Part shown: in pieces, positions 12,551 through 13,120 of the stretch
How the letters are laid out: each line of letters begins with the position of its first letter
Numbering within the stretch: the first letter of the stretch is position 1
NCBI RefSeq assembly: GCF_028200735.1
Contig: NZ_JAQKPV010000002.1
Span: 186,001-250,000, forward strand
Length of the DNA stretch: 64,000 bases
DNA from: Streptomyces sp. ACA25
GTDB taxonomy: Bacteria > Actinomycetota > Actinomycetes > Streptomycetales > Streptomycetaceae
Direction of reading: 5' to 3'
Notes under the pieces: model-generated
Database searches by the model: none
Told to the model about the DNA's origin: nothing
The model's input: the letters and a program-made list of their open reading frames with translations, nothing else
Made by a program: the position numbers and the translations under genes

Positions 12551-12619
12551 GGTGGTGTGTCCTCGTCTCGTCGGTTGTCGGTCTGTTCCGGCTGGTAGCC
12601 GGGCGCCGGGGCAAACAGA

Positions 12620-12654
12620 AGGGCCGCGGATCCCGGTGTGGGTTCCGCGGCCCT
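12620..12654 (-). terminator. Terminator-like attenuator hairpin in the wblC leader
   Basis: An 11-bp perfect stem (12620-12630 with 12644-12654), extended internally by three G-C pairs, is followed in the minus-strand direction by TTCTGTTT. This has the form of an intrinsic terminator yet lies 70 bases upstream of the wblC start, with the upstream ORF ending just before it. Such a site would stop transcription before wblC unless the leader refolds. Confidence 0.75.
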
Positions 12655-12666
12655 GGAAAGGTGCCG

Positions 12667-12687
12667 ACCTGATCTCGCCGATCAGGT
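12667..12687 (-). promoter_or_regulatory. Hairpin spanning the stop codon of the wblC upstream ORF
   Basis: A perfect 8-bp stem (12667-12674 with 12680-12687) has a 5-base loop. The stop codon of the 94-codon upstream ORF (12682-12684) lies within it, so a terminating ribosome would cover the stem. It is placed to couple translation of the leader to folding of the terminator at 12620-12654. Confidence 0.55.
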
Positions 12688-12966
12688 GGGGTCACTCCAG
12701 GGATCGAGCCCGCGGAGGGCCCACATCGTGCAAAGCTGCGTCTTCTGGTGTCCAAAAAGCTGATTGCCGGCACCATGGGCTGCATCGCTGCAGTCGACTG
12801 CCGCCGCTGCTACCTCAGGCGCCTGGATCGGTCGCGCGCTGCTGCGCTCCCGGATACGGGAAGCCGCCGGACGCACTGCCGCACCGGTGCCGGGCAGGCC
12901 GGACTCGAGCGGGCAGGAGGCGACGGCCTCGCGGCCGACCAGTTTGGTGATCGTCTTCATGGTCAT
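12682..12966 (-). CDS. Upstream ORF in the wblC leader (94 codons)
   Basis: An open frame starts ATG-ACC-ATG at 12966 with a strong Shine-Dalgarno (GAGGAGG) eight bases upstream, and encodes MTMKTITKLVGREAVAS and further residues to DPWSDPT. It resembles no protein family I know. Its position between the wblC promoter and a terminator-like hairpin suggests a leader whose translation state controls read-through into wblC, as described in general terms for whiB7. The peptide itself may not matter. Which of the two ATGs is used is open. Confidence 0.6.
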   Translation of the reverse strand: MTMKTITKLVGREAVASCPLESGLPGTGAAVRPAASRIRERSSARPIQAPEVAAAAVDCSDAAHGAGNQLFGHQKTQLCTMWALRGLDPWSDPT

Positions 12967-13081
12967 GGGGATCGCCTCCTCTCTGCGTCGGGAGTCTCAG
13001 GGCCGGTGTGCGCCGGCCGGGTCGTTCAGTACAGCACGGCTCAGGGGGGAGCGGCAGGCTCCTCCTTGGCCGTGTGAACAC

Positions 13082-13120
13082 GCTATGCGGATCGCTCGGG
13101 CGAGCGCAAACTATTTTTCC
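13082..13120 (-). promoter_or_regulatory. Probable wblC promoter with an A/T tract next to the -35
   Basis: On the minus strand, a GGAAAAATAG tract (13111-13120) is followed by a -35-like TTGCGC (13104-13109), a 16-base spacer and a -10-like CATAGC (13082-13087). WhiB7/WblC-dependent promoters are known for a short A/T stretch just upstream of the -35, so this is a candidate autoregulated promoter. It overlaps the stop codon of the helicase gene. Confidence 0.55.

Follow-up and report, generated by a model that had tools for sequence, protein, structure and literature searches.

The regulator WblC/WhiB7 is a switch for intrinsic resistance to many ribosome-targeting drugs in actinobacteria. 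In 2022, Lee, Lee and Roe (doi 10.1111/mmi.14834) reportedly described a transcription attenuator of wblC/whiB7, operating in Streptomyces and in mycobacteria and mediated by a leader open reading frame (uORF). According to the available excerpts of other papers, translation of the whiB7/wblC uORF leads to a terminator and failure of translation to an antiterminator, also under amino-acid starvation (PMC11550727); the same terminator/antiterminator scheme is given for whiB7 in PMC9618640 and PMC13393426, WblC is placed under ribosome-mediated attenuation in PMC12421871, whiB7 is treated as a well-characterised attenuator in PMC13236596, and attenuation 3' of the uORF appears in mycobacterial transcriptomes (PMC4128351). 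The attenuation principle for wblC/whiB7 is therefore not new: it is already published, as the original prediction for the locus studied here had stated and as the excerpts of papers citing Lee et al. (2022) bear out. What is described below is an orthologue of this known attenuator, with a fuller anatomy and a testable refinement.

The locus belongs to Streptomyces sp. ACA25, whose genome comprises 5.43 Mb in 87 contigs. It resembles the attenuator of Lee et al. (2022), as excerpted in the citing papers, in the orthologous gene, the leader uORF, the intrinsic terminator and the antiterminator on failed translation, and those excerpts reveal no difference in principle. The elements found are a WhiB7-type regulator, a frame-conserved uORF led by a Shine-Dalgarno sequence (SD), a Rho-independent terminator between the two, a conserved antiterminator that excludes the terminator (its base, taken alone, being without covariation in the alignment) and, as a sequence pattern with one mismatch in its box, a WblC-responsive promoter 5' of the uORF. 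A composite hairpin whose apex carries the stop codon, a nearly neutral uORF body and the freedom of this body from Trp codons are described here for the wblC leader. These three features do not appear in titles and abstract openings among the matches listed, which carries little weight since most subscription papers lie outside that material.

Leaders of the erm type depend on a short conserved arrest peptide. Mentioned also in the excerpt of PMC4128351, they are similar in that ribosome stalling in a leader ORF alters the RNA fold and raises resistance. They differ in the peptide itself, because the body of the wblC uORF is almost without peptide-level selection: purifying selection on the leader peptide is not seen there (pN/pS 0.87), and only in the last 14 codons does the ratio fall to 0.47. 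The ABC-F attenuators are5sc and tiaA of Streptomyces also combine a uORF, a terminator and an antiterminator before an antibiotic-response gene, but their uORFs are tiny (MLV and MVGDDDISG) and stall the ribosome at the start codon for one drug group, according to the excerpt of PMC12421871, whereas the wblC uORF has about 90-130 codons.

Locus, uORF and predicted promoter

The window, that is, the whole stretch of 64,000 nucleotides that was analysed, carries on its minus strand, in this order, a UvrD-like helicase gene (15426-13111), the leader and wblC, the whiB7 orthologue (12550-12194, with a GTG start taken from the list of open reading frames). All features given below in window coordinates lie on this strand. 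In a profile search, the wblC product matched the Pfam family Whib with 54 bits (cut-off 23.6), and an AT-hook, RGRPRKNP, was read by eye; a search of WblC against NCBIfam gave no match. Judged by WblC, the strain is closest among named organisms to Streptomyces triticirhizae and Streptomyces sp. 8K308. When the whole window was compared with Rfam, the only match was a tRNA elsewhere, leaving the leader without a family above the gathering score, and the leader alone gave a single match below that score (18.7 of 43 bits, E 0.12).

As the original prediction had noted, the leader contains an ORF of 94 codons with a strong SD. This uORF (12682..12966) runs from an ATG to a UGA stop at 12684-12682, and the sequence AGGAGG (12975..12980) lies 8 nt before the ATG. 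For comparison, 217 wblC loci were collected: L007-L175 (169 loci) represent the Streptomyces side, meaning the genus together with part of the nearest genus in the family, and L176-L223 (48 loci) come from elsewhere in the class (other genera, families and orders). They are the best-scoring matches of each search together with chosen representatives, a non-random and partly non-independent sample in which some genomes occur twice (e.g. L020/L086, L022/L090, L044/L080 and L052/L094) and the 169 Streptomyces-side uORFs reduce to 163 distinct ones. Relatives of the uORF were found by tblastn in all of the first 138 loci, which belong to the Streptomyces side (138/138; lenient settings, weakest E 9e-7). 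A permissive scan, looking only 5-60 nt before the terminator arm and accepting an SD core of at least 4, placed an SD-led uORF in 214 of 215 leaders, with its stop 18-31 nt 5' of the arm; under the rule used, L202 has no SD-led start. Within the Streptomyces side the uORF has 88-133 codons; outside it the range is 61-202, the upper value being that of L220, which is doubtful. Eight further leaders came from family f6, and a similar scan found both terminator and uORF in six of them and no terminator in L238 and L244.

A promoter of the WblC type is predicted 5' of the uORF, at 13080..13118, from the consensus given in the accessible part of PMC7157823 (GAAAWY, 3 nt, TKGMNN, 16-19 nt, TANNNT). 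The box AAAAAT (13118-13113), with one mismatch to GAAAWY, is followed by the -35 element TTGCGC (13109-13104), a spacer of 18 and the -10 element TAGCGT (13085-13080), and the transcript would be expected to start at 13073-13072. With the search pattern relaxed and widened to take in the AAAAAT box of this window, 193 of the 214 leaders have a match 5' of the uORF and none of the 214 has one on the reverse strand; in the matches, the -10 element ends a median of 112 nt before the uORF. A generic promoter scan of the leader region found nothing. Because the WblC-type pattern sits 5' of the uORF, the predicted start, at about 13072, is upstream of 12620, a start downstream of that position having been named beforehand as evidence against attenuation.

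Two minor observations concern this region. The WblC box of the predicted promoter shares bases with the helicase stop codon (window 13111-13119). Furthermore, the motif TGHTSTACT (here TGCTGTACT, 13028-13036) is conserved in the leader at a median of 69 nt before the uORF start, being present in 160 of the 169 Streptomyces-side leaders and 7 of the 45 others, with no occurrence on the reverse strand or in shuffles; it is possibly a second -10 element.

Terminator and composite antiterminator

The intrinsic terminator (12620..12654), delimited by folding and comparison, pairs a 5' strand at 12654-12644 with a 3' strand at 12630-12620 through 11 pairs if the outer A-U is included and 10 without it. 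The inner part of the hairpin consists of an A.A opposition (12643/12631) and then CCC facing GGG, and the U-rich tail TTCTGTTT occupies 12613..12620. Twelve bases (12666-12655) separate the hairpin from the helix at the uORF stop codon, so that the predicted layout, in which a terminator-like hairpin stands at this distance past the stop helix and is followed by its U-rich tail, all before wblC, is present in the sequence. Folding, which had been proposed as a check, gave -64.8 kcal/mol for the 131-nt region (z -3.33), with none of 200 shuffles as low. A standard terminator scan of the window found none at the leader, a miss attributed to the loop limit of 3-8 and to the A.A opposition, which interrupts the long stem.

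Among the relatives, all 217 wblC leaders of the main set have a terminator, 215 identified by scan and two (L180 and L222) by eye, both of the latter having been missed because the wblC match overlapped the terminator. There is little variation in the arms within the class, with 18 different 14-base sequences among 214 leaders, and in family f6 the core reads GGCCACGG instead of GGCCGCGG. A fixed-loop version of the pattern gave 27 matches in 296 genomes of the class, 23 beside wblC, one not, and three that could not be compared with wblC places. In the genome of strain ACA25 itself, the full pattern occurs at one other place. Reuse of the terminator sequence elsewhere in this genome was considered and rejected: the looser GGCCGCGG inverted repeat was found at 18 places, against 14 for a reversed control, and the core is therefore ordinary. 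As to the A.A opposition, it is kept in at least 183 of 215 leaders, a perfect stem being one base away, and it may weaken the terminator against the antiterminator.

Two features had been proposed separately in the original prediction, namely an 8-bp hairpin over the uORF stop codon and an alternative pairing of UCCGCGG, inside the uORF, with CCGCGGA of the terminator 5' arm. Both belong to a single composite antiterminator, in which an outer stem that had been missed connects them. The stop-codon helix (12667..12687; alignment, swap tests) forms the apex and pairs ACCUGAUC (12687-12680) with GAUCAGGU (12674-12667), the UGA lying inside it as anticipated. The outer stem pairs CCCUGGAG (12695..12702, uORF positions -18 to -11, containing the Trp codon at -5) with UUCCAGGG (12651..12658), which runs from immediately 5' of the arm into it and shares the first bases of the terminator. 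The base joins GGG (12722-12720) and UCCGCGG (12716-12710), both inside the uORF (12710..12722, positions -38 to -26), to CCGCGGA (12650-12644) and CCC (12642-12640), this 3' strand (12640..12650) being shared with the terminator 5' arm. Outer stem and base were delimited by folding and swap tests. The seven-base pairing proposed at first is complementary and has strand-swap support with imperfect controls, but it is only the base of a longer hairpin that includes the stop helix.

For folding, each leader was cut so as to begin 42 nt upstream of the uORF stop and to finish with the terminator 5' arm, which corresponds to the RNA before the 3' arm is made. In 50 leaders the typical fold is a single long hairpin that rises from the base through a bulge of roughly 7 nt and the outer stem and is capped by the stop-codon helix. 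Among 50 non-redundant leaders, 49 have at least 5 bases of the 5' arm paired with the uORF (212/214 of all leaders) and 39 have at least 2 bases of the stop codon paired (201/214), the other 11 leaving it unpaired or nearly so; the outer stem is weak in L178, L207, L219, L220 and L221. Against dinucleotide shuffles, these folds have a mean z of -2.96, with values below -2 in 39/50; for the RNA of this window ending before the 3' arm, the folding energy is -45.4 kcal/mol (z -2.7). Stability favours the terminator state over the antiterminator state, by 5.8 kcal/mol here and by a mean of 8.7 in the 50 leaders (range 0 to 15.4), and the switch therefore needs kinetic control; the calculated energy gap fits a switch that would be set by which hairpin forms first.

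Comparative covariation, which had also been suggested as a check, gave a divided answer in alignment A1 (50 leaders). The terminator and the stop helix together have 14 pairs changed on both sides, against a shuffle mean of 7.8 (0/500 as high). For the stop helix alone, 60 cells are changed on both sides versus 26.4 in shuffles (0/500), the count of such pairs being unexceptional (7 versus 5.9, 143/500). The antiterminator base gave no covariation beyond shuffles in this alignment (72.1% versus 71.9% paired), and slid versions of it pair at 31-47%. Synonymous-codon shuffles, in which codon frequencies came from the same uORFs and the peptide was kept, were also used to judge the duplex energy between uORF end and terminator arm: 3 of 50 leaders ranked 5 or better of 100, and the window's own leader ranked 34. 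The energy of the base duplex is not unusual, and its pairing therefore rests on comparative evidence.

Strand-swap tests were adopted because the synonymous null keeps a peptide that itself encodes the complement, and because register shifts spoil the alignment for some helices. The A1 count for the outer stem was likewise replaced by folding and swapping, since it is out of register where the terminator starts AGG. In these tests, the duplex energy of a leader's own strands is compared with that of swapped strands, with one row per distinct strand pair and relatedness otherwise uncorrected. Outside the Streptomyces side, z was -6.6 for the outer stem, -9.3 for the stop helix, -6.3 for the terminator and -4.1 for the base, while controls with more upstream uORF pieces gave 0.3 (outer partner), 1.5 (stop arm) and -2.6 (base arm). 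When each distinct arm was entered once, the base had -18.63 kcal/mol for own strands versus -16.65 (p 0.0005; controls p 0.024, 0.11 and 0.64), and with 23 distinct arms, six of them from f6 and L220 excluded, z was -5.5 (controls 0.8, -2.3 and -2.1). For four of six f6 uORFs (L237, L241, L242 and L243) the own arm is a better partner than the common arm, for L239 it is equally good and for L240 worse; in L191, L037, L058 and L219, the own arm pairs no better than the common one. A compensation read by eye in L025 was discarded (own arm -17.8, common arm -17.9). From the swap results, the outer stem, the stop helix and the terminator are therefore firmly supported as predicted helices, and the base moderately so.

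The length of the uORF, its stop-codon hairpin and the alternative pairing had been regarded as details specific to this leader; they belong instead to a shared plan of wblC leaders. Hairpins and uORF frame are kept in relatives, the terminator, the uORF and the stop helix recur far beyond the genus, and the predicted folding plan looks fuller than at first seen and common to many actinobacterial families. Such a comparative structure names the bases expected to make the switch.

Frame and peptide of the uORF

No in-frame stop occurs in the 163 distinct Streptomyces-side uORFs. The other forward frames are open in 0 and 11 of the 163, and base-shuffled copies in 14/163; antisense frame 0 is open in 159/163 because TTA, CTA and TCA codons are rare, a caveat on frame openness. 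The 226 close uORF pairs, in which one sequence may serve up to six times, differ by 414 indels, of which 366 have a length divisible by three. The kept frame bears on the view that there is no attenuator here, the terminator serving the upstream helicase gene, the uORF being a chance ORF and the wblC promoter lying downstream. It is true that the terminator is downstream of the UvrD-like gene, that chance ORFs are frequent in GC-rich DNA and that the generic promoter scan was empty in the region. However, the frame is kept in 163/163 distinct uORFs, the helices join the uORF, the stop codon and the terminator arm, and a WblC-type promoter pattern lies 5' of the uORF, all of which makes such an arrangement extremely improbable.

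In the uORF body, the 226 close pairs of the Streptomyces side have a pN/pS of 0.87, with about equal change at the three codon positions (0.097, 0.109 and 0.106). For random uORF pairs the ratio was 0.94 in the reading frame, against 0.87 and 0.95 when the frame was shifted, and the GC content at third positions is 0.78 in the body versus 0.89 in wblC. Since stops are absent, indels come mostly in threes and pN/pS is 0.87, it is the frame that counts, and the peptide of the body has little importance. The final 14 codons, with a pN/pS of 0.47, are the stretch that also holds the RNA helices, and on the Streptomyces side the uORF ends with Trp at -5 in 168/169 and Pro at -2 in 167/169.

So strong a conservation of the last residues, together with their lower pN/pS, is what could be expected if, as in erm leaders, a specific nascent peptide and a drug together stalled the ribosome and the antiterminator were freed by this stall alone. 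Yet the conserved end coincides with the RNA helices, and four leaders from elsewhere in the class (L200, L205, L208 and L218) have lost the Trp codon while keeping the outer stem with other bases. In addition, the body drifts nearly freely in close pairs, with equal change at the three codon positions, and a stall at the very end would, with a textbook footprint, cover the antiterminator base. An arrest peptide thus seems unlikely. On the Streptomyces side, the kept frame and the almost neutral body favour, as far as sequence comparison can indicate, a sensor of completed translation, and the composite structure explains a conserved uORF end despite a drifting body peptide.

Proposed switch and codon content of the uORF body

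The wblC leader is very probably a transcription attenuator that senses whether the ribosome finishes the uORF. The translation-coupled attenuator put forward in the original prediction is in this sense supported by the conserved terminator, uORF and helices, by the promoter pattern and by the excerpts of the citing papers. The composite antiterminator draws on the last 13 uORF codons, the stop codon and the terminator 5' arm. In healthy cells, the ribosome would get to the uORF end, covering the antiterminator base while on the last dozen or so codons and opening the stop helix and the outer stem when on the stop codon; the 5' arm would thus be free for the 3' arm, and transcription would end near 12613. 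Were a drug or a missing aminoacyl-tRNA to halt the ribosome upstream of about codon 80, the composite hairpin would fold as the RNA emerges and hold the 5' arm, so that RNA polymerase would read on into wblC, whose product would then act on the promoter. With the textbook value for the ribosome footprint, a stall at codons 1 to about 80 should leave the hairpin free. One leader could in this way answer many unrelated drugs, through any stall before the last dozen or so codons and without a drug-specific arrest peptide.

A narrower role, in which the uORF would mainly report the shortage of one amino acid, e.g. alanine as cited for mycobacterial whiB7, draws on the Ala-rich body (18.5%) and on the induction by amino-acid starvation mentioned in excerpts of papers citing Lee et al. 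(2022). The Ala count is, however, only a little above the expectation from base composition (2750 versus 2358 on the Streptomyces side, 673 versus 656 elsewhere), and this role is judged very unlikely. A sensor of uORF completion, the preferred reading, may also be considered in the light of the codons that the body avoids. In Streptomyces-side bodies (here 12724-12963), counted without the start codon and the last 14 codons and with expectation by codon position, a single Trp codon is present in 14,833, that of L160, where base composition predicts 104-107. TGG is seen 269 and 143 times in the two alternative frames (415 and 138 expected), and it occupies 52 and 31 alignment positions there versus one in frame; the Trp codons of these uORFs stand at fixed places near the end. 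Asp and Pro codons are also depleted in frame (log2 -1.4 and -1.1). In 42 bodies from other families (L216, L220 and L223 being left out for doubtful uORF starts), Trp is not depleted (39 observed versus 27-31 expected) and the depletion of Asp and Pro is weaker.

One reading of the Trp-free body is that slow codons 5' of the antiterminator would trip the switch by accident. Extended further, this leads to a pure completion sensor, a tentative proposal that we hold to be possible rather than probable: the peptide would be irrelevant, the length of the uORF would serve as a dragnet for any stall, and selection on the body would favour decoding without pauses, with Trp codons purged and Asp and Pro codons reduced on the Streptomyces side, leaving genuine translation stress as the sole trigger. 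Trp, Pro and Asp would be confined to the last positions of the uORF, at which a ribosome that pauses would shield the antiterminator and the gene stays off, and the stop codon at the apex would make the terminating ribosome the off signal. As a separate observation on codon content, Gln codons occur in the bodies of L007-L223 at about double the frequency expected from base composition, and this holds both for the Streptomyces side and for the other families (log2 1.1-1.2).
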